Assembly: GCA_003094555.1 (NCBI GenBank)
Contig: NATW01000094.1
Location: forward strand, 1-37,569
Reading direction: 5' to 3'
From: a gamma proteobacterium symbiont of Ctena orbiculata
GTDB lineage: Bacteria > Pseudomonadota > Gammaproteobacteria > Chromatiales > Chromatiaceae
Length of the DNA stretch: 37,569 nucleotides
Part shown: positions 17,321 to 32,897 of the stretch, one piece after another
How positions within the stretch are numbered: position 1 is the first letter of the stretch
How the letters are laid out: each line of letters opens with the position of its first letter
Notes under the pieces: model-generated
The model's input: only the letters and a program-made list of their open reading frames with translations
Databases searched by the model: none
What the model was told of the DNA's origin: nothing
Made by a program: the position numbers and the translations under genes

Positions 17321-17758
17321 ATGAAAACGATCAATGATTCTATGGTACTGGATCACCGTCGCTGTGATGAACTTTTCATAGAGATGGAACAGGCCATTCT
17401 GCAACATAAATGGCCGGAAGCAAATCGTCTCTGTCAGGAATTCACTGCATCAATGGAACACCATTTCAAGATAGAGGAGGAGCTGCTCTTTCCGGCCCTT
17501 GAGGCGGCAAGCCCCCAGGCGAGTGGCCCTATCAATATGATGATGCTGGAACATGATCAAATGCGGCATCTGATGTCACAGCTGACGTCATCCCTCGAGA
17601 ATATGACAAATACATTGTCCGCGGGCTATATCGACACCTTGCTCGTCACCATGCAACAGCACAACATGAAGGAAGAGAATATCCTCTACCCCCTGGCGGA
17701 CAGTGCGGTCCCGGATATTGCCAAGAATATTGCGAAGGCGTTTACGGAGTCTTCCTAG
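17321..17758 (+). CDS. Hemerythrin HHE domain protein
   Basis: A 145-residue four-helix hemerythrin-like protein. Iron ligand positions are visible in LDHRRCDEL, SMEHHFKIEEELLFPALE, LEHDQMRHLM and QQHNMKEENILYPLAD. Such proteins bind a di-iron centre and handle O2 or NO, or help repair iron centres (compare YtfE/RIC). It heads a tight operon of four overlapping genes behind the FNR-type box at 17253. The context makes NO buffering or repair of NO-damaged iron centres during denitrification the likely job. Confidence 0.88.
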   Translation: MKTINDSMVLDHRRCDELFIEMEQAILQHKWPEANRLCQEFTASMEHHFKIEEELLFPALEAASPQASGPINMMMLEHDQMRHLMSQLTSSLENMTNTLSAGYIDTLLVTMQQHNMKEENILYPLADSAVPDIAKNIAKAFTESS

Positions 17759-18006
17759 TGGAGTTGCGGCTTGATGTTCGGGAGTTGGAACCGCCCGTAC
17801 CCCTGGAACGCATACTGGAAGCCCTGGAAGAGCTGTCAGCGGATGACTGGCTTAGAGTGGTGCACAGCCGCGAACCCTATCCGCTCTACAGTATGCTACG
17901 GGAAATGGATTTCACATGGCGCACAAAATGGCAGAGCAACATCTGCGTTATTTTGATCTGGCATGTCGGCAGTCCGCCTCCCGATAGCATCGGAAAGGAG
18001 TTGTGA
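17758..18006 (+). CDS. DUF2249 protein
   Basis: An 82-residue protein starting at a GTG whose first base is the last base of the hemerythrin stop. It opens LRLDVRELEPPVPLERILEA and holds DWLRVVHSREPYPLYSMLRE, the DUF2249 pattern: a TusA-like fold found beside hemerythrins and NO genes in denitrifiers, sometimes fused to them. The biochemical role is unknown. Its stop overlaps the next start (GTGA, 18003-18006). Confidence 0.8.
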   Translation: MELRLDVRELEPPVPLERILEALEELSADDWLRVVHSREPYPLYSMLREMDFTWRTKWQSNICVILIWHVGSPPPDSIGKEL

Positions 18007-19274
18007 AGACCAGCGGGCTGTCTCTCGATCAGGCCCCGCCTATTATCATACCTTTCAAATATTTCCTCACGGCTTCACTATTCACCATTGCCGCAGGGTT
18101 GGTCCTGGCCATACAGGCCGAGGCAGTGTTCGTTTCCCGCTGGAGTCCTCTGGCTTTAGGCATAACCCATTTAATGACAGTTGGTTTTCTTGCCCAGGTC
18201 ATGACCGGCGCCATGATTCAACTGTTGCCCGTATTGGCAGGCTCTCCCATACCGGCGGTTGTGACAGTAAGCAGAATCATCCATCTGTCACTTCTTGCTG
18301 GCGCCACCTTGATGGTGCTGGGTTTTCTGCTGTCCCATGACTATATACTTGGCACTGGCGCGGGGCTTGCGTTGTTCGCTATCTCTTTTTTCCTGCTGAC
18401 TTTGTTTTTTTCATTGACCAGATCCGGAGAAAGGCAGGCCAGTTCAATCCCCATCGGCCTCGGTTGGGCGGCAATCCTTCCCACGGTGGCAATAGGCATC
18501 TACATGGTGCTGGGGTTGTCGGGAATGGTTGAGATTGAGCATATGCCTCAGCTCACTACCATTCATCTCTCCTGGGGCCTTTTTGGTTGGGTGGGTATAG
18601 TATTATTTGCAACGGTTTTCCAGCTTCTTCCCATCTTCTATATAACCAAAGAGTTACCGGGCAAATTCAGGGATTACTCCTTCGCGGCCATTTTTATTCT
18701 CTTGTCCCTGTTTACCCTGTCACACTACATCGACAATCAACTGTTTGAATTCAGTCTGCAGATGATCCTGGGGTTGTTTCTCCTGCTGAGCCTCACACTG
18801 TTTCAGACCATTCGCACACGCAGGCGAAAAATTGTCGATATGACCTTGGTTTTTCTCTATACAGGATTGGTCTGTTTAGGGCTTACGGTCATCGTTTGGA
18901 TGTTTGGCGGCAATGATCTATTGATCGGGGTACTGCTACTTGGCGGCGTTTGCATGACCATCCCGATCGGGATCATCTACAAAGTGATACCATTTCTATG
19001 TTGGTTTCACCTGCAGAGCTTGCTGGTGAAGCAGGGAAAGCTGTCGTCCCGACTGCCATCGATGAAACACTATATCGATGACGAAGATACTAAACGCCAT
19101 TACATCTTGCATCTGGCGGCAATCTCTCTGCTGGTCGCGGCCACCCTGATGCCCGCCACCCTTGCAAGACCTTCAGGCATTGCCTTAAGCCTCTCGTCCC
19201 TCTATTTTTTTAAGAACCTGCTGGCCGCGCTGTTGAGATTCAACAAACAGCAACAGGCGATACTGGAAGAATGA
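18003..19274 (+). CDS. Polytopic membrane protein, NnrS-like
   Basis: A 423-residue protein with about 12 membrane segments. Conserved-looking His positions lie in GITHLMTVGFLAQVMTGA with the following QLLPVLAG, in TIHLSWGLFGWVGI with FQLLPIFYI, and in YKVIPFLCWFHLQSL. The length, segment number and neighbourhood (hemerythrin, DUF2249, nor, nos) fit the NnrS/heme-copper-associated group linked to NO stress, but the match is by pattern only and it may be a separate family. The start is GTG overlapping the DUF2249 stop; its stop overlaps the next ATG. Confidence 0.6.
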   Translation: MKTSGLSLDQAPPIIIPFKYFLTASLFTIAAGLVLAIQAEAVFVSRWSPLALGITHLMTVGFLAQVMTGAMIQLLPVLAGSPIPAVVTVSRIIHLSLLAGATLMVLGFLLSHDYILGTGAGLALFAISFFLLTLFFSLTRSGERQASSIPIGLGWAAILPTVAIGIYMVLGLSGMVEIEHMPQLTTIHLSWGLFGWVGIVLFATVFQLLPIFYITKELPGKFRDYSFAAIFILLSLFTLSHYIDNQLFEFSLQMILGLFLLLSLTLFQTIRTRRRKIVDMTLVFLYTGLVCLGLTVIVWMFGGNDLLIGVLLLGGVCMTIPIGIIYKVIPFLCWFHLQSLLVKQGKLSSRLPSMKHYIDDEDTKRHYILHLAAISLLVAATLMPATLARPSGIALSLSSLYFFKNLLAALLRFNKQQQAILEE

Positions 19275-20053
19275 TGGTATATGGCTTGACAATAAAACGG
19301 ATGGTGAGTGGCGTGCGCATACAACTGTTGATGGTCATCGTGCTCTTTCCAATCCTGGCATATGGCCAGGAGCCTAAGCCCCTGGCGGAGGGTGACTGCA
19401 TGCGACCTGGACCCTATCGTGACTATCGTCATTGCGATTTCAATGGCAGGGATCTCTCATCAGTCAACCTTGAGGGCAGCCTGTTGAGTGGTGTCAATTT
19501 TCAGAATGCCAAGTTGCTGGATTGCAATCTCAAGCATGCGATCCTGATCGATGCCGATCTCAAGTGGGCCATGCTCTCCGGTTGCAGGGCGGCCTCAGCG
19601 GATTTTACCAATGCCGACCTATTTCATACCAACCTGGACGACACCAGGATCGACAACGCCAATTTTACCAAGGCCTATCTTTTTGGCGCCAGTATGAACG
19701 GGGTGACGGGGGACAGGGCCAGCTTCGCAGATGCGAATCTCAAGGATATCTCGATGGAGGAGAGCCGACTGACAAACTCCAAATTTGATCACGCGTTCAT
19801 GATGCGGGCGGTACTCATAGACAGCGACCTGAGTGGCTCGAGCTTCCGCCAAGTGGTATTGACCGGGGCCGCCCTGGAATACGCCAACCTCACCCAAGCA
19901 GACCTGTCAGGGGCTCTACTGAACGGCACCACGTTGACCGAGACCAAGTTTCGGGGCGCCAGACTAACCGGATCCCGCTTTGTCAATGCGCGTATGCAAT
20001 CACCCGATTTCACCGATGTCATCGATCCGCCAAAGGATCTGGTTCCTGAATAA
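19271..20053 (+). CDS. Secreted pentapeptide-repeat protein
   Basis: A 260-residue protein: signal peptide (hydrophobic about 17-30, ending AYG), then about 40 tandem A(D/N)LxX-type pentapeptides from residue 50 to 240 (for instance ANFTKAYLFGASM, ANLTQADLSGALL). The repeats would fold as a right-handed quadrilateral beta helix, and export puts it in the periplasm. The start overlaps the preceding stop (ATGA). No function is known; the position between NO-handling genes and copper-chaperone genes suggests a scaffold in enzyme maturation. Four Cys precede or sit within the first repeats. Confidence 0.85.
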   Translation: MMVYGLTIKRMVSGVRIQLLMVIVLFPILAYGQEPKPLAEGDCMRPGPYRDYRHCDFNGRDLSSVNLEGSLLSGVNFQNAKLLDCNLKHAILIDADLKWAMLSGCRAASADFTNADLFHTNLDDTRIDNANFTKAYLFGASMNGVTGDRASFADANLKDISMEESRLTNSKFDHAFMMRAVLIDSDLSGSSFRQVVLTGAALEYANLTQADLSGALLNGTTLTETKFRGARLTGSRFVNARMQSPDFTDVIDPPKDLVPE

Positions 20054-20095: not shown

Positions 20096-20109
20096 TTGAT
20101 CTTCATCAA
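20096..20109. promoter_or_regulatory. FNR/DNR-type box before the SCO operon
   Basis: TTGATCTTCATCAA matches TTGAT-N4-ATCAA exactly. It is centred about 140 bases before the ATG at 20242, leaving a leader of roughly 100 bases. Confidence 0.78.
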
Positions 20110-20241: not shown

Positions 20242-20601
20242 ATGACTATTAAAGTTAATAAATACATATTGTTGCTTTCGGCCGGCCTTGCCCTGATGCT
20301 CTTCAAGGCCACGGACGCGGCGGCACAGAGCAGTGAACAGCTTGCCGCCATCACTGCGCTGGGTTCGCTCAATGGCATAGCGCTGCACTGTAACGCGCTG
20401 AGTGAAACCCAGCGGATCAAGCGTGAGTTGGTGGCGACGCTTCCGAAACGACGTCAGCTGGGCGAGCTGTTCGATTATGAAACCAACAGATCATTCATGG
20501 CATTTATCGAGAAAAACGACACCTGTCCCTCACCGCAATCATTGGCACAACAAGTTGACGAGGCCCTCGGCAGATTGCAATCCCTGTATCCTGCAAGATG
20601 A
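20242..20601 (+). CDS. Small secreted two-Cys protein of unknown function
   Basis: A 119-residue protein with a signal peptide (hydrophobic about 8-21, cleavage near DAAAQ). The mature part is helical and has two Cys, in ALHCNALSETQRIKREL and NDTCPSPQSLA, spaced for a disulfide or a metal site. I do not recognise a named family. The stop overlaps the ATG of the SCO fusion (ATGA, 20598-20601), so it is coupled to copper-chaperone synthesis and may assist it. Confidence 0.7.
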   Translation: MTIKVNKYILLLSAGLALMLFKATDAAAQSSEQLAAITALGSLNGIALHCNALSETQRIKRELVATLPKRRQLGELFDYETNRSFMAFIEKNDTCPSPQSLAQQVDEALGRLQSLYPAR

Positions 20602-22040
20602 AACATCGTCGCTCAAAGCAACTGTTTTATTTCGTATTTCTGATCATCGGTCTATTCGCCGTACCGGCATCCCATGGCAAGGACTCGTTGCGTGTCATGG
20701 TCAGCGTGAAACCGCTGCATTCTATCCTGGCCGGACTTATGCAAGGCGCGGAAACACCGGAACTCATAATCGATGATCAGCTCCCATACTCATTTGTACC
20801 CAGCAAGGATCAACAGGCGTCGATGGGTAACGCAGACATCGTTTTTTGGGTAGGCGCCGAACTCGAGCCGCTGCTTGCCGATACCATTCAAGGCCTGCCA
20901 CCCCAGGTGAAGGTTATCGAATTGCTATCCCATCAGGGCATGAAGATACTTCCGGCAAGGGGGTATCAAGACAATCGCGATCCCTTTTTCTGGCTGGACA
21001 ATCGCAATCTTCTCATCATTATCAACGATATTGCCCATCTTCTTCAGGAAGCCGATCCACTGCGTACCCACCTCTATGAACGAAACAGACGCACCATGCT
21101 TTCACGCCTGTCGCGTATTGATCGAGAGTATGAGTATGGCTACCGTGGAATGAAGGCCGGTTTAGGCGTTCAGTACTTCGATACGCTGCAATATTTCGAA
21201 CAGGCCTATGCCTTGGAGATCATCGACCATGTGGCCGGTGCGCCGGATAAAGAGATCGCGACAGTTGAGCTACTCAAGGTCCGGGAAAAAATTGCCAATG
21301 GCGAGGTTAGCTGCCTGTTGTCGGAAAAGGGCTTTCCCGCAAAACACAGGGAGCTGCTGACCGTCGAGAGCAGGGTCAATCATGGCCAACTGAACAGCCT
21401 GGGATTTGGCATGGAGCCGGGCCCCCAGCTCTATTTCGATCTTATGGATCACAATACCAAGGTGATTAAAAACTGTCTTACCACGGCCGCCCAGGCTGCA
21501 GTCCCCCCCGCGGCGCAGACCAGGCCGTCAAGCGCTCCAGTCCCTCAGGGTATTGGCAGAGGACAGTTTCTTCTGACCGATCATCTGGGCCGGCTGGTTA
21601 CCAATGAGAGCATGAAGGGGAAGTATCAGATTCTCTATTTTGGCTATACCTACTGCCCCGATATCTGCCCGACCTCGCTGCAGATCATGTTTCAAGCCCT
21701 GGATCTCCTGGGCGAAAAGTCGCAGCTCTTTCAACCCTATTTCATCACCATAGATCCACATCGGGACAGTGTGGCCGTGATGCGGAACTATGTCGAATAT
21801 TACGATAAGCGTCTGATCGGTCTTACCGGATCGCCCAAGATGATCGAGCGCATGGCCGAACTGTTCAAGGCGCGCTATGAAAAGGTTGTGGAAGAGGGTG
21901 CGGATCCCTCCATGTATCTGATGGACCACACCGCCAGCCTCTATATCCTTGATCCGGATGGCAGGTTTCTCACAAAACTGGCGCACGGTATCGAACCGGC
22001 GGACGTTGCCAGAGAGTTACTCAAACTCACTTCCCAATAA
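20598..22040 (+). CDS. Degenerate ZnuA-like domain fused to SCO1/SenC copper chaperone
   Basis: A 480-residue exported protein. Residues about 28-295 have the cluster A-I (ZnuA/TroA) metal-binding fold: RVMVSVKPLHSILAGLMQG, NADIVFWVGAELEPLL, DPFFWLDNRN, YFDTLQYFEQAYAL. The metal ligands appear lost: ZnuA PHDY reads LPYS (62-65), the DxH of the next block reads DPF (F130), the HD pair reads FD (F194-D195) and DPLG reads NSLG (N266). A Pro/Ala linker (about 298-318) leads to a complete SCO domain with C353-PDI-C357 and H444 in MDHTASLY. SCO proteins deliver copper to CuA centres or reduce their thiols; the FNR box upstream and nosZ 205 bases downstream make NosZ CuA the likely client. Confidence 0.85.
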   Translation: MKHRRSKQLFYFVFLIIGLFAVPASHGKDSLRVMVSVKPLHSILAGLMQGAETPELIIDDQLPYSFVPSKDQQASMGNADIVFWVGAELEPLLADTIQGLPPQVKVIELLSHQGMKILPARGYQDNRDPFFWLDNRNLLIIINDIAHLLQEADPLRTHLYERNRRTMLSRLSRIDREYEYGYRGMKAGLGVQYFDTLQYFEQAYALEIIDHVAGAPDKEIATVELLKVREKIANGEVSCLLSEKGFPAKHRELLTVESRVNHGQLNSLGFGMEPGPQLYFDLMDHNTKVIKNCLTTAAQAAVPPAAQTRPSSAPVPQGIGRGQFLLTDHLGRLVTNESMKGKYQILYFGYTYCPDICPTSLQIMFQALDLLGEKSQLFQPYFITIDPHRDSVAVMRNYVEYYDKRLIGLTGSPKMIERMAELFKARYEKVVEEGADPSMYLMDHTASLYILDPDGRFLTKLAHGIEPADVARELLKLTSQ

Positions 22041-22137: not shown

Positions 22138-22165
22138 CATTTGACCTAAATCAATGTGTCAAATG
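22138..22165. promoter_or_regulatory. FNR/DNR-type box nested in a longer inverted repeat, nosZ promoter
   Basis: TTGACCTAAATCAA (22141-22154) fits the FNR/DNR consensus and lies about 97 bases before the nosZ ATG. It overlaps a perfect eight-base inverted repeat, CATTTGAC (22138-22145) and GTCAAATG (22158-22165), so a second dimer or different spacing could compete for the same stretch. Confidence 0.78.
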
Positions 22166-26076: not shown

Positions 26077-27255
26077 ATGCAGTCTAAGCAAACGCTTCAA
26101 ATAACCGCACTCACCCTGATCGGGTTGGGGCTACTCGTGGTGATTTTCTATACGCCCATCTGGTGGGTTTCATTGACAGCACCCAACTACCCGCCTGAGT
26201 CGTTTCCGGATGGTGTACGCATCCACTTCCACATGAATGGGGTTTTCAACGGCTGCAAAAAACAGGAGAAAGCGGAGATCGCCGAGGAGGAGGCCCTCGA
26301 TTGCGTACATGAGATGGATACCATCAACCACTATGTGGGAATGTATCCCATCGCCGCCGGCGGTCCGGTGGAGCGGGGATTCGGCCAGTTCCTGATGGCT
26401 TTTCTGGCTGTCATGCTGCTCGGCTTTCTGTTCATCTCCCCGAAACAACGCATGATCGTTTTAAGTGTTGGTTTCGTGGGCATCGCCGCCTGGATGACTT
26501 TGACGCTCTATGGTGAGAATGGCTTCAAGCTGCAAAACACTGGCTATGTCAGCGCACTCGTTACCTCATTGGATCAGGAGGCGTCCGGCGAAACGAGCGA
26601 ACCCGAAATCGTCATTGGTGGTGTGGCCGGCATTCTCAAGGATTCCCTGGAGGAGTCGGGCGTCGAGGTGATCCTGCCTTCACAGGTGGAGGCGGCCAGG
26701 CGGGCCGCGCAGGGTACAACGAACACAGAAAAATCCCACCTGATTGAGCAACTCAAACTGACCTATGACATCGACCAGGTGAAATCGGATAGCTTGCAAC
26801 CCTGGGATGGAAGCGCCTTCCAGGTCATGTCCTGGCACTATGCGAAAAGTCTGGGTCGCTATTTCAACAATCAGGAAGAGATCGTACCGATGGTGAAGAA
26901 CCTGGAGCTGGCGATTCATGTTGTATTTTACGCCATCCTCGGAGCCATGGCGTTGGTGGTTTTCGGTTCGCGCAAAAACGGCGGGTTGCTCTACTGGCTG
27001 TTGATACTGGTCCCTGTCGCTCTACCACTGTTCTTCATCATAGACTATTCGGCTTGGCTCTGGTGGTACGGCCACACCCTGAACGATATGGGTGCGTTTT
27101 CGGTCAAACCCTTCATGCCGACGGTATTCGGCGACGGTAAGGTGGCGCAGTTCACCACCCACTCCTATCCCTATATCGGCTTTGGCCTGATGGTTTTGAC
27201 CTCTTTTATCCTGGCGTTGGCTGCGCTGTTTCGATTCAAACAACTGAATAAATGA
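26077..27255 (+). CDS. nosB: NosB-type membrane protein
   Basis: A 392-residue inner-membrane protein. One segment at about 10-32 is followed by a periplasmic loop with HFHMNGVFNGC and DCVHEMDTINHYVGMYPI, then two segments (about 107-155), a second soluble region and three C-terminal segments. This is the architecture and position of NosB, the clade II nos protein shown to be needed for N2O respiration in Wolinella; its mechanism is unknown. The conserved Cys, His and Met residues in the loop would suit metal binding. GGAG precedes the ATG. Confidence 0.82.
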   Translation: MQSKQTLQITALTLIGLGLLVVIFYTPIWWVSLTAPNYPPESFPDGVRIHFHMNGVFNGCKKQEKAEIAEEEALDCVHEMDTINHYVGMYPIAAGGPVERGFGQFLMAFLAVMLLGFLFISPKQRMIVLSVGFVGIAAWMTLTLYGENGFKLQNTGYVSALVTSLDQEASGETSEPEIVIGGVAGILKDSLEESGVEVILPSQVEAARRAAQGTTNTEKSHLIEQLKLTYDIDQVKSDSLQPWDGSAFQVMSWHYAKSLGRYFNNQEEIVPMVKNLELAIHVVFYAILGAMALVVFGSRKNGGLLYWLLILVPVALPLFFIIDYSAWLWWYGHTLNDMGAFSVKPFMPTVFGDGKVAQFTTHSYPYIGFGLMVLTSFILALAALFRFKQLNK

Positions 27256-27376
27256 ATTTTGATTGTTGAATTATGAATGTTGAATCAATGTGTTCACTGC
27301 GTTCACATCTATCGAATAGATTGTGTGCGCACGCACACTCAACAATTCAGAATTCAAAATCAATAATTCAAAATTC
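27254..27376. repeat. AATTC-rich inverted repeat inserted at the 5' end of nosD
   Basis: The left arm (27254-27285, GAATTTTGATTGTTGAAT type) and right arm (about 27338-27376, ATTCAGAATTCAAAATCAAT type) are imperfect inverted copies built of ATTCAA/TTGAAT words. A central GTGTGCG-CA-CGCACAC hairpin lies at 27324-27339. The element starts in the nosB stop codon and covers the apparent nosD start and signal n-region. Confidence 0.65.
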
Positions 27377-28727
27377 CTGCCTGTTAGTGCTGTCACTGGT
27401 CTCGTTGCAGGGATTCGCAGAGACGCCGCCCCATCCCTCGTTTCAGGCCCTGGTGGATGCAACCGAGTCCAATGGCACCTTGGTCCCACCCCCGGGGACC
27501 TATGCGGGTCCGGTCACCATCACTACCCCGATCACTATTGACGGACAGGGAAGGGTCACAATCGACGCGGGTGGTACGGGCTCGGTAATCACCCTGAAGA
27601 CCAACGGCGCCACGTTGAAAAATCTTCGCTTGACCAACTCGGGCGAATCCCATAACACCATCGATTCCGGTGTGCAGGTGCGGGGGGATTTCAATGTCAT
27701 CAAAGACAATGTCATCGATAACACCCTGTTCGGCGTAGACCTGCAACAGTCGAAAAACAATATCGTCAGAGGTAATCGTATCTCTTCAAAGCCACTGGAA
27801 CTGGGCGTGCGCGGGGACGCCATTCGGCTTTGGTACAGCTTCAACAACAAGATCACCGACAATATCATCCGCAACTCGAGGGATACGGTGGTCTGGTATT
27901 CCCGTGACAACCTGATCGCGCGCAACGATGCGCGTGGCGGGCGATACTCGCTCCATTTCATGTATGCCCAATACAACGAGGTGGTGGATAACCACTACGA
28001 AAACAACTCTGTCGGCATATTCATTATGTACAGCGACGGAGTGCATCTTAAAAACAACTACATTGCCCATGCCACAGGCGCCACCGGTATGGGCATAGGT
28101 TTCAAGGAGACCTCTGATGTGGTGGTGAGCGGGAACCGGATACTCTACTGCGCAACCGGTCTCTATCTCGATGTCTCTCCCTTCCAACCGGACACCATCA
28201 ACCGAATCGAGAACAATCTGATCGCCTATAGCGGCATTGGCGTGCTGTTTCTCAACGACTGGACCGGCAATCAGCTGACCGGTAACAGCTTCAAAGGCAA
28301 TATCACCCAGGTGGCTGTATCGGGTGGTGGCAAGACCGCCAATCGCAACCTGTGGCAGGCGAACTATTGGGATGACTACGAAGGCTTCGACATCGACCGG
28401 GATCAGGTGGGTGACAAACCCTATGAGCTGTTCAGCTATGCCGACCGGATCTGGATGGATGTGCCGTCAGCGCAATTTTTCAAAGGGTCCCCGGTACTGG
28501 AAGTAATGGACTTTCTCGAACGCCTCGCACCCTTCACCCAACCCAACATGCTGGTGCGGGACGAGCAACCCCGTATGAGTACCGCTGCCTCCACCCTGGC
28601 AACGGAGACCCTGGTCCCGATGGCGGAGGGGGATGCCGATTCAATCGATGAATCCGAATCGCCATCTGAACAGGCTGAGCAGGCCTTCGATGCCTATAAA
28701 GCACTGCGCGAATCTCTGGGACGCTAA
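27273..28727 (+). CDS. nosD: NosD, periplasmic copper-site maturation protein
   Basis: A 484-residue exported protein made of right-handed beta-helix (CASH/PbH1) repeats from about residue 70 to 370, for example RGDFNVIKDNVIDNTLFGVD and NEVVDNHYENNSVGIFIM, the NosD hallmark. It works with the NosFY ABC transporter and NosL to build CuZ. The first 35 residues are odd: most are encoded by the repeat at 27254-27376 (IQNSKSIIQNS), and the signal core LLVLSLVSLQGFA follows immediately. No ribosome site is seen at 27273. A C-terminal Glu/Ser-rich tail extends beyond the repeats. Confidence 0.92.
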   Translation: MNVESMCSLRSHLSNRLCAHAHSTIQNSKSIIQNSCLLVLSLVSLQGFAETPPHPSFQALVDATESNGTLVPPPGTYAGPVTITTPITIDGQGRVTIDAGGTGSVITLKTNGATLKNLRLTNSGESHNTIDSGVQVRGDFNVIKDNVIDNTLFGVDLQQSKNNIVRGNRISSKPLELGVRGDAIRLWYSFNNKITDNIIRNSRDTVVWYSRDNLIARNDARGGRYSLHFMYAQYNEVVDNHYENNSVGIFIMYSDGVHLKNNYIAHATGATGMGIGFKETSDVVVSGNRILYCATGLYLDVSPFQPDTINRIENNLIAYSGIGVLFLNDWTGNQLTGNSFKGNITQVAVSGGGKTANRNLWQANYWDDYEGFDIDRDQVGDKPYELFSYADRIWMDVPSAQFFKGSPVLEVMDFLERLAPFTQPNMLVRDEQPRMSTAASTLATETLVPMAEGDADSIDESESPSEQAEQAFDAYKALRESLGR

Positions 28728-30632: not shown

Positions 30633-31532
30633 ATGATCCAATTTGAAAACATCGTCAAAAGATTCCGGCGGCAGCGGGTACTCAAGGGCATCGATCTCAC
30701 TATCGAGCGCGGTCACCGGGTTGCCCTGGTCGGTTCCAACGGCGCTGGAAAGACCACGCTGATACGCTGCCTGCTGGGTGAATACATCTGCGAGGGCAGG
30801 GTGTTGGTGGATGGCATGAACCCCCGCCAGAACCGACGCGAGGTGTTGTCAAAGGTAGGCTTCGTACCGCAACTGCCGCCACCACTGCATATGCCGGTGG
30901 GGCAGCTGATCCGCTTCTCCGCCACCCTTTGCGATAGCGATCCTTCGCGCATGATCAGCGTGGCGGGGCAACTCGGCTTCGATGCGGAACGTTTTCACAA
31001 TCACGCCTTCGTAAAACTCTCCGGCGGCCAGAAACAGAAGCTGCTGATCGCCATCGCCCTCGGCAGAGAGAGCGAACTGCTGGTGATGGATGAGCCCGCC
31101 GCCAACCTCGATCCGGAAGCGAGACATATCTTCTTCGAACTCCTTGCCGAGAAGAAGCAGCGGGCGGCAATGCTGATATCGAGTCATCGTCTGGATGAGG
31201 TGGCGACGCTGGTTAATCGGGTCATCGAGATAGACCAGGGAGAGATCGTTTTGGATGACCGGGTAGCCGATCTTGTGGAACTCTCATCACGACTCTACTG
31301 CAGAATCCAGTTGCTGCAAGCCGAAGCGGCATTTGCCAAGGCCATCACCGAATGGGGCTTCAGGGACCTGGAGGCGGGGCTGGTGTGGGAAGGCACCATA
31401 GCCGGACCCGATCGCCTGCGTTTTCTCAGCCTGCTCTCCCGCTATGCCGCGTTGTTCTCGAATATAGAGATCTCCGAAGCGGAAGGGCAAGCGAGCACTA
31501 CAAGGCGAGGACGCACCATCAATGTGGTCTGA
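30633..31532 (+). CDS. nosF: NosF, ABC transporter ATPase
   Basis: A 299-residue ATPase: Walker A GSNGAGKT (about 34-41), signature LSGGQKQK, Walker B LLVMDEPAANLD and the H-loop SSHRLDE. Its C-terminal 80 residues form the accessory region seen in NosF/CcmA types. It drives the NosFY transporter that delivers a sulfur species or energises NosD for CuZ assembly. It overlaps nosL by 11 bases. Confidence 0.92.
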   Translation: MIQFENIVKRFRRQRVLKGIDLTIERGHRVALVGSNGAGKTTLIRCLLGEYICEGRVLVDGMNPRQNRREVLSKVGFVPQLPPPLHMPVGQLIRFSATLCDSDPSRMISVAGQLGFDAERFHNHAFVKLSGGQKQKLLIAIALGRESELLVMDEPAANLDPEARHIFFELLAEKKQRAAMLISSHRLDEVATLVNRVIEIDQGEIVLDDRVADLVELSSRLYCRIQLLQAEAAFAKAITEWGFRDLEAGLVWEGTIAGPDRLRFLSLLSRYAALFSNIEISEAEGQASTTRRGRTINVV

Positions 31533-32073
31533 CTCCATCTATCGCTATTTGGTGCCGGTCGGTATGTTGCTGCTGTCAGGCTGCTCGGGTGACGGGGATA
31601 CCGGTCCTCTCAGCATCAAATGGGACAGGGATAGCTGTGAGCGCTGTCGCATGGTGTTGAGCGATCGTTACCATGCAGCACAAATCCGCTACTTTCCCCC
31701 TGACAAACAACGCTCGGTGGTGGCGCGTTTCGATGACATCGGCTGCGCCGTTCTGTGGTTGGCGGACAAGCCCTGGCAGCAGGATCCCAGGACCCGGATA
31801 TGGGTCACCGATCACGCTACCGGGGTGTGGATCGACGCCACCCGCGCGACCTATGTGAGGGGGCGTCACACACCCATGGATTATGGTTTGGGGGCACAGG
31901 AGGAGACAACGCCCGGCGGTCTCAACTTTACTCAGGCACAGCAGTATATCCGTCTGGTGGATCAGCGCCATCAGGCACACAGCGCTCATCTGCTGGAGCG
32001 TCTCAAAGAGCAGCAACAACGCACACAGGGTGGCAACGGACAGGATGCCAATAGAGGAGTCAAGCAACCATGA
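31522..32073 (+). CDS. nosL: NosL, copper-binding lipoprotein
   Basis: A 183-residue outer-membrane-directed lipoprotein with lipobox LLSGC21 and the copper site C39-ER-C42-R-M44. NosL binds Cu(I) and hands it to NosD for NosZ. The C-terminal 30 residues are Gln/Arg-rich and extend past the usual domain. Here it sits between nosF and nosY, overlapping both (11 and 4 bases), an order that splits the transporter genes. Confidence 0.92.
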   Translation: MWSDSIYRYLVPVGMLLLSGCSGDGDTGPLSIKWDRDSCERCRMVLSDRYHAAQIRYFPPDKQRSVVARFDDIGCAVLWLADKPWQQDPRTRIWVTDHATGVWIDATRATYVRGRHTPMDYGLGAQEETTPGGLNFTQAQQYIRLVDQRHQAHSAHLLERLKEQQQRTQGGNGQDANRGVKQP

Positions 32074-32897
32074 AATATCTCTGGCTCGCGGCCTACACCG
32101 ATATCATCGAATCCCTGCGCGCCCGCTGGTTCGCGGTGTATACCATGGTATTCGGCGGATTGGTGGTGATCCTGTTCGCCTTTGGCCTGGCAGAGTCACG
32201 CATCATGGGTTTTACCGGGCTTTCACGCTTGTTGATCACCTATATACAACTCTCCATGGCGATGCTGCCCATCTTCGTCCTGATCACCACCGTGAGATCG
32301 GTGGCCGGCGACCGGGAGGCGGGTGTATTCGAGTATCTGCTTTCATTGCCGATCACCCTTGGCGCCTGGTTCTGGGGCCGGGTGTTCGGACGCTTCTTCG
32401 TGGTCTTTCTTCCGGTCTTTCTCGCCATGGTCGGCGCCACCGCCTGGGGAATGGTCAAGGGGGTCGAGGTGCCCTGGCATCTGCTGATCTACTACAGCGG
32501 CCTGTTGATGGCCCTGGCCTGGTGCTTTCTCGGCATCGGCATGTTGATCTCCACCCTGACCCGCAGTACCGATGTGGCCCAGGGGGCCGCCTTTGTGGTC
32601 TGGCTGACCCTACTGCTGTTCCTCGACCTGATTCTGCTGGGTGTCCTTATCCAGGAGCATCTGCCACCGGAGACAGCGGTGGCGATCGCACTCACCAACC
32701 CGATGCAGGTCTTTCGTACCGCCACCATGATGCTATTCGATCCCCAGCTGGTGCTCCTGGGACCGACCGCCTATGTGATACTCGATAATTTCGGCCAGGG
32801 CGGTTACATCACCTACGCGATACTCTACCCAATTGCCCTGGGTACGGCCTGCGCCGGTCTGGGATTTGCCATGTTTAAACGCAGCGATCTGCCATAG
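32070..32897 (+). CDS. nosY: NosY, ABC transporter permease
   Basis: A 275-residue permease with six hydrophobic segments and the NosY-type start (RARWFAVYTMVFGG) and RSVAGDREAGVFEYLLSLPI coupling region. It forms the NosFY transporter with NosF. The start overlaps the nosL stop by ATGA. Confidence 0.92.
   Translation: MKYLWLAAYTDIIESLRARWFAVYTMVFGGLVVILFAFGLAESRIMGFTGLSRLLITYIQLSMAMLPIFVLITTVRSVAGDREAGVFEYLLSLPITLGAWFWGRVFGRFFVVFLPVFLAMVGATAWGMVKGVEVPWHLLIYYSGLLMALAWCFLGIGMLISTLTRSTDVAQGAAFVVWLTLLLFLDLILLGVLIQEHLPPETAVAIALTNPMQVFRTATMMLFDPQLVLLGPTAYVILDNFGQGGYITYAILYPIALGTACAGLGFAMFKRSDLP

Follow-up and report, generated by a model that had tools for sequence, protein, structure and literature searches.

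Nitrous oxide reductase, NosZ, is the key enzyme removing N2O, a greenhouse gas, and the filling of its CuA site, above all in clade II organisms, is in our judgement poorly known. Proteins of the Sco type are recognised by a CxxxC motif and a distal histidine, and ScoI and Sco1 carry a transmembrane anchor. In the DNA analysed here, 37,569 nucleotides of contig NATW01000094.1 from a gammaproteobacterial symbiont of Ctena orbiculata (this whole stretch is called the window below), nosZ is preceded by a gene for a protein that joins a ZnuA-like domain to an SCO domain, and this in turn by a gene for a small secreted protein. Our favoured reading, to which we give a probability of roughly 0.6, is that the fusion is the main protein of a periplasmic maturation module for the Sec-type NosZ (TIGR04246), which we take to be the clade II enzyme, and most likely for its CuA centre. 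Computation provides the basis: the SCO site is intact, the His ligands of the ZnuA fold are usually replaced by aromatic residues, a small partner gene is present, the module co-occurs with Sec-type nosZ, its parts are shuffled among genomes, and its SCO domain forms a distinct lineage.

Sco proteins serve CuA, and in Paracoccus N2O reduction at low copper is weakened when senC2 or pcuC is lost, as described in the accessible part of PMC7558416. The fusion resembles the SenC2/PcuC system of Paracoccus denitrificans, in which N2O reduction at low copper needs a Sco-family protein and has been proposed to serve NosZ CuA; compared by description, the difference is that SenC2 and PcuC are a separate Sco protein and PCuAC partner, for which the accessible part mentions neither a ZnuA-like domain nor a small helical partner (PMC7558416). 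The same part names a third Paracoccus gene beside these two, Pden_4445, of unknown function (PMC7558416). NosL is likewise a dedicated copper factor for NosZ, but it is an unrelated protein that serves CuZ (accessible part of PMC6530538), and the module is found in clusters that also hold NosL. In Paracoccus, the CuA bands of NosZ lie at 480 and about 540 nm (PMC6530538).

On its SCO side the fusion has the fold, CxxxC motif and distal histidine of ScoI/Sco1 (4wbj, 2ggt), and differs from them in that the domain lies C-terminal to a soluble-looking ZnuA-like domain and not behind a transmembrane anchor. On its other side it shares with ZnuA (Escherichia coli 2osv, C. koseri 7rcj) and AztC the fold, the order of motifs and two conserved cysteines (C239 and C293), whereas in the window protein three histidines and an aspartate are replaced, the His-rich loop is missing, and no zinc-importer genes are seen in the window. 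In AdcA, the domain that accompanies the ZnuA-like one is not an SCO domain. Like the fusion, AdcA (7jj9) has a ZnuA-like domain joined to further protein (titles of 7jj8 and 7jj9); unlike what we propose for the fusion, that domain binds zinc (title of 7jj8). A first-pass annotation of this DNA, made from the letters alone, had suggested that the fusion is an undescribed NosZ maturation factor, and a literature search covering few subscription papers found no account of it or of the three-part module, nor do the accessible parts of PMC6530538, PMC7558416 and PMC5387054 describe either. As judged from sequence, what is new would be a ZnuA-like/SCO version of the established Sco pathway for CuA, together with a small protein family unmatched in Pfam and NCBIfam; the arrangement suggests the reuse of an importer's binding protein as part of a chaperone. 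The features of the two genes are as follows.

20242..20601, + strand: small secreted helical protein, 119 amino acids, of no known family; overlaps the start of the fusion gene by 4 bases
20598..22040, + strand: ZnuA-like/SCO fusion protein, 480 amino acids, from translation of the open reading frame (ORF); N-terminal secretion signal read by eye
20694..21476, + strand: ZnuA-like domain, residues 33-293; Pfam PF01297 at 105.9 bits (cut-off 29) and ZnuA fold match
20787..20789, + strand: codon 64, Tyr at the first ZnuA His-ligand position (profile alignment)
20985..20987, + strand: codon 130, Phe at the second ZnuA His-ligand position (profile alignment)
21177..21179, + strand: codon 194, Phe at the third ZnuA His-ligand position (profile alignment)
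21393..21395, + strand: codon 266, Asn at the Asp of the LDPLG motif (profile alignment)
21501..21560, + strand: inter-domain linker, residues 302-321; predicted local distance difference test score (pLDDT) below 50 in the predicted structure
21561..21968, + strand: SCO1/SenC domain, residues 322-457; Pfam PF02630 at 154.7 bits (cut-off 22.8) and ScoI fold match
21654..21668, + strand: CPDIC copper/redox motif, with C353 and C357
21927..21929, + strand: distal His444 of the SCO site

The reading frame, the ZnuA/TroA fold of the N-terminal half and the preserved SCO site, all proposed in the first-pass annotation, were borne out. The predicted structure of the fusion has a mean pLDDT of 87.1 and a predicted template-modelling score of 0.60, and its top matches in a fold search are solved ZnuA and ScoI structures: the ZnuA half superposes on 7rcj_A with a template-modelling (TM) score of 0.91 by target length (root-mean-square deviation 2.2) and on E. 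coli ZnuA 2osv_A with 0.90, and the SCO half on ScoI 4wbj_A with 0.87. C353, C357 and H444 are invariant in 50/50 aligned fusions, that is, the window protein and 49 chosen out of 62 fused loci. The closest named relative, with 73% identity over the ZnuA-like domain, is Candidatus Thiodiazotropha endolucinida, which places the window in a genus of lucinid symbionts.

SCO domains have a thioredoxin-like fold, and the SCO half might therefore act as a thiol-disulfide reductase only, keeping the cysteines of NosZ reduced and carrying no copper. The genome G048, where the ZnuA-like gene follows DsbA-like and DsbD_TM (CcdA-like) genes, is in keeping with such a role, but a pure thiol reductase would not need the invariant His444, which we take to be a copper ligand in Sco proteins, and we regard this explanation as unlikely.

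The fusion stays below the NCBIfam equivalog cut-offs for AztC (77.1 against 350 bits), ZnuA (65.7 against 268) and MntC (45 against 400), and no zinc-type ABC permease or ATPase was seen by eye beside it among the window ORFs listed at minimum lengths of 80, 150 and 200 amino acids; the window's own ABC genes (30633-31532 and 32070-32897) resemble nosF and nosY. Canonical ZnuA copies on contig C107 are, by eye, accompanied by ABC-type genes.

In domain profile alignments, Y64, F130, F194 and N266 fall on the three histidines and the LDPLG aspartate of 2xh8 and 2ogw, positions that we take to be the zinc ligands (H60, H143 and H207 in E. coli ZnuA); for 7rcj the second motif comes out shifted, and for 4bbp it falls outside the alignment. 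The His-rich loop of 2ogw has no counterpart in the window protein. Canonical ZnuA rows have H, H, H and D at the four positions in 14/14 cases, whereas 65 degenerate rows (without the partial rows L105, L107 and L115, and without L098, which was read by frame and is also absent from both the ZnuA-domain and SCO trees) show Y 35, F 12 and H 9 at position 64, F 31, Y 24 and H 8 at position 130, Y 23, F 22 and H 17 at position 194, and D 48, N 16 and K 1 at position 266. Some forms have Phe in place of all three histidines (FFFD). From these alignments the rule of the family is a swap of three histidines for aromatic residues with the aspartate mostly kept, the full loss of four ligands belonging to the window protein and its near kin. 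The claim that the domain has lost its metal ligands consequently stands for the window protein and fails as a fixed family trait: five loci, L061-L065 from Candidatus Thiodiazotropha endoloripes and its kin, have His at all three positions and Asn at the fourth, as does L036 of genome G002. A strict family definition by loss of all metal ligands was dropped on account of His at all three positions in these five loci.

When the ligand columns are left out, the 68 degenerate rows form one clade (support 100/99) apart from three canonical rows, and L061-L065 form a clade nested (100/100) within the Tyr/Phe family; we read this nesting as a regain of His, possibly of a metal site, although retention could also account for it. 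At 23 positions, conservation extends to 93% or more of the degenerate rows but to less than half of the 14 canonical ones, so that the domain seems to be kept up for a new function and not to be decaying. The idea that His-bearing fusions substitute for a missing canonical ZnuA was rejected as a general explanation, since separate ZnuA matches above 200 bits (ligands not inspected) occur in G002, G008, G011, G013 and G016; in G009, no ZnuA match above the fusion's own score appears among the matches listed.

The same residues bear on a two-site metal relay, in which the ZnuA-like half would bind copper or zinc through other residues and pass it to the SCO half. Its attraction lies in the intact predicted ZnuA fold, in D266 kept in 48/65 rows, in the histidines, of which one clade has all three and some other rows a single one, and in H41, just past the first strand, which is nearly invariant (at least 90%) in the 50 fusions. 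Yet Phe, unable to bind metal, occupies ligand positions in the window protein and many relatives up to the FFFD forms, the window protein has no His-rich loop, and H41 is shared by the canonical relatives L041 and L017, whose ligand set is complete, so that it is no replacement ligand as such. We consider a relay quite improbable.

The fusion is a conserved architecture, as the first-pass annotation had supposed: the ZnuA-like and SCO domains lie in one frame at 62/68 loci (61 by the CPxxCP motif, and L098). Among the six others, L105 and L107 are cut at a contig end and L115 ends near one, and the ZnuA-like domain stands alone, with no SCO, at L104, L114 and L116, the last of which is a scan match with canonical ligands (HHHD). 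Where the parts are separate, they are found in other combinations. G352 encodes a 297-residue protein that joins the small protein to SCO (the SCO half identified by Pfam, the small-protein half by a 35% tblastn match), with the ZnuA-like gene on another contig; in G048 and G159 the small gene adjoins a lone SCO, and in G048 the ZnuA-like gene lies elsewhere, in the Dsb context described above. Reshuffling of this kind is a classical hallmark of functional partners. In the SCO tree, the 61 fused rows, the SCO domains of G352, G048 and G159 and the long-branch L174 form one clade, with 0/21 other paralogs inside it (short search, SH-like approximate likelihood-ratio support 95, no bootstrap; L099 and shorter rows left out).

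The unit is larger than the two-domain fusion first described, and includes the small upstream protein. A relative of the small gene lies upstream of the ZnuA-like domain at 64/68 loci, the exceptions being L073, which starts at a contig end, and L104, L114 and L116. It is within 100 bp of the domain gene at 51/54 measured loci (not at L067, L076 and L108); the start of the small gene could not be set in seven further loci and was mis-set in two, and these do not enter the spacing count. Across 43 aligned members, out of 58 extracted rows, nine residues including two cysteines are invariant, and the model (pLDDT 91.0) has a signal-like helix followed by four helices. No consistent Pfam family was found over the 43 members, no NCBIfam or Pfam family matched the window's protein, and a fold search gave it no solved fold at E 0.001 (best E 3.5). 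The small protein also follows the domain across genomes: it is present in 11/369 genomes of a class sample, nine of them with the degenerate domain, plus G159 and G241, and in 25/56 genomes of a sample of relatives, 24 with the degenerate domain plus G033, where the match is partial.

The class sample was an even one of 369 genomes, in which the degenerate domain was counted at scores above 300 bits (the next score being 225), with up to six candidates scored per genome in one scan and up to three in another. Sec-type nosZ is over the cut-off in 9/9 genomes with the degenerate domain as against 12/360 others, and the fusion thus does not occur mainly in genomes without nosZ but tracks the Sec-type gene, as had been predicted. 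The association has a one-sided Fisher p of 9e-13, uncorrected for genome kinship; the nine genomes span 6 families, and the family-level Fisher test took an approximate family count of 182. Judged by the length of the open frame, the domain is fused in seven of these nine genomes and unfused in G048 and G352.

Closer to the window, nosZ is present in 19/20 fusion-bearing genomes of its genus in the relatives sample; the remaining one, G012, has a contig that stops some 200 bases past the fusion, and its NosD lies elsewhere. G015, the only genome of the genus sample without the fusion, also lacks nosZ, NosD over the cut-off and the small protein. Four relatives (G022, G030, G033 and G048) have Sec-type nosZ but not the full fusion. 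A third set comprised the genomes of named loci, 50 in number, at least four of them shared with other samples; L089 was left out as the same strain as L079, and exclusion of the L116 genome gave 49. Full nosZ occurs in 39/49, nosZ fragments with NosD over the cut-off in 2/49, NosD over the cut-off with no nosZ found in 4/49, partial NosD below the cut-off in 2/49, nosF/L/Y beside the locus in 1/49, and a nosY-like gene alone in 1/49, the Solemya velum symbiont. Many of these genomes are incomplete metagenome-assembled genomes, so that an absent nosZ may be an assembly gap.

A more general role, in which the fusion is an SCO factor for cytochrome oxidases or periplasmic redox proteins and its tie to nosZ reflects the lifestyle of denitrifying sulfur oxidisers, would suit a gene often not seen inside the nos cluster, and it gains from the lack of correction for genome relatedness in the co-occurrence test. 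Sco and PCuAC chaperones do serve more than one enzyme, according to the accessible part of PMC7558416. We nevertheless hold this to be very unlikely: the genomes carry other SCO paralogs (at least four more in G000), the full domain is confined to 9/369 class genomes, all with Sec-type nosZ, and among genomes whose nosZ matches, at about 430-510 bits, were taken as Tat-type, only G118 has the full domain, a genome that also has Sec-nosZ, while G241 has a fragment.

The favoured reading, a maturation module for Sec-type NosZ, would work as follows. By analogy with SenC2/PCuAC of Paracoccus, the SCO half would deliver copper to the two cysteines of the NosZ CuA site, or keep them reduced. The ZnuA-like half would no longer feed an ABC importer and may now serve as a docking domain for apo-NosZ or a different Nos factor, and the small protein, four-helical in its model, would be the partner of the fusion, perhaps binding its SCO or its ZnuA-like half. 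In the window's genus, FNR-type control, suggested by palindromes in the DNA, could turn the module on with nosZ at low oxygen.

Several observations weigh against this reading or narrow it. In the class sample, 12/21 genomes with Sec-nosZ do not have the degenerate domain, which makes the module a lineage-specific aid and not a universal requirement for Sec-NosZ. In G241 (87% complete), which carries the small gene together with a fragment of the degenerate domain truncated by the end of its contig, no Sec-type nosZ exceeds the cut-off; the sole nosZ match, at 473.9 bits, was taken as Tat-type. In the Solemya velum symbiont the fusion is retained, and neither nosZ nor nosD was found in the genome. 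Outside the window's genus, nosZ lies in the fetched stretch at 5/51 loci, with other nos genes at 7 more, as compared with nosZ near the module at 16/17 loci within the genus. In G030 (L155, 7127) and G048 (L153, 19295), nosY is followed at a distance of no more than about 1 kb by an SCO of a different clade, a second kind of SCO association with nos genes. The FNR box claimed at the outset corresponds in the window to FNR-like palindromes at 20096-20109 and 22141-22154, but is not family-wide: a site of this kind precedes the small gene at 17/61 loci as against 35/340 random stretches, recurring in several loci of the genus. A pure docking domain leaves the all-three-His clade of Thiodiazotropha unexplained, and CuA rather than CuZ as the target is a choice that we infer.

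A bolder version of the favoured reading, possible but doubtful, would make the three proteins a dedicated Sec-NosZ assembly complex, in which the small protein, from an entirely new family, would be the third subunit and the former zinc-binding protein a pseudo-receptor. The aromatic pocket of this pseudo-receptor, in which Tyr or Phe interchanges with His, would hold a non-metal ligand, a segment of apo-NosZ, or a sulfur/copper carrier for CuZ, and present it to SCO.

The module marks Sec-type NosZ in many marine sulfur-oxidising bacteria, among them lucinid symbionts, Sedimenticola and Candidatus Thioglobus, and the named genes make metal loading in the Sec-type NosZ clade testable. Loci of S. 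selenatireducens and S. hydrogenitrophicus have the module, and both of these Sedimenticola genomes contain Sec-type nosZ. In the gill symbiont of Solemya velum (L112 and L039), a transposase-like gene lies near the fusion, its small partner gene and a nosY-like permease, which together look like what is left of a lost nos cluster.

In the window itself, the fusion adjoins nosZ, as first annotated, and the order continues with two cytochromes c, NosD, NapG/NapH-like genes and nosF-, nosL- and nosY-like genes; the names nosB, nosG and nosH were assigned by position. The neighbouring features are these, the FNR consensus being presumably TTGAT-N4-ATCAA.

20096..20109, + strand: FNR-like palindrome TTGATCTTCATCAA, perfect, 132 bp before the start codon of the small gene
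22141..22154, + strand: FNR-like palindrome TTGACCTAAATCAA, upstream of nosZ, one base off TTGAT-N4-ATCAA
22245..24542, + strand: nosZ, Sec-dependent nitrous oxide reductase; TIGR04246 at 880.7 bits (cut-off 625)
27273..28727, + strand: nosD; TIGR04247 at 388.3 bits (cut-off 300)
30633-31532, + strand: nosF-like, named by eye; the L037 counterpart matches ABC_tran (ABC ATPase)
31522-32073, + strand: nosL-like, named by eye; the L037 counterpart matches Pfam NosL
32070-32897, + strand: nosY-like, named by eye; the L037 counterpart matches ABC2_membrane_2 (ABC-2 permease)

Seven exact TTGAYNNNNRTCAA sites occur in the window (13066, 13129, 17253, 20096, 22141, 25085 and 34180), and four of them (17253, 20096, 22141 and 25085) closely precede ORFs whose starts are at 17321, 20242, 22245 and 25211. 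If one mismatch is tolerated, the motif has 18 matches in the window against 4.6 expected by chance.

Upstream of the module, a pentapeptide-repeat protein with a signal-like N-terminus (19271-20053 in the window) is encoded at 14/17 loci of the genus, and outside the genus at L068, L109, L113 and L117. Two membrane-type proteins in the nos region of the window, at 26077-27255 ('nosB' by position) and 18003-19274 (NnrS-like by eye), have no Pfam or NCBIfam match at E 0.01. The nosZ of G017 (L031, 10400-12614) was matched in two pieces of 689 and 44 residues, which suggests a frameshift or an assembly error near the 3' end. A menA-type prenyltransferase lies near the module at L037 (11733-12644, TIGR00751 over the cut-off; the same genome as L111) and also at L066, L074, L078, L082, L091 and L098 (tblastn 43-63%), a neighbour that perhaps links the module to menaquinone-fed electron transfer.

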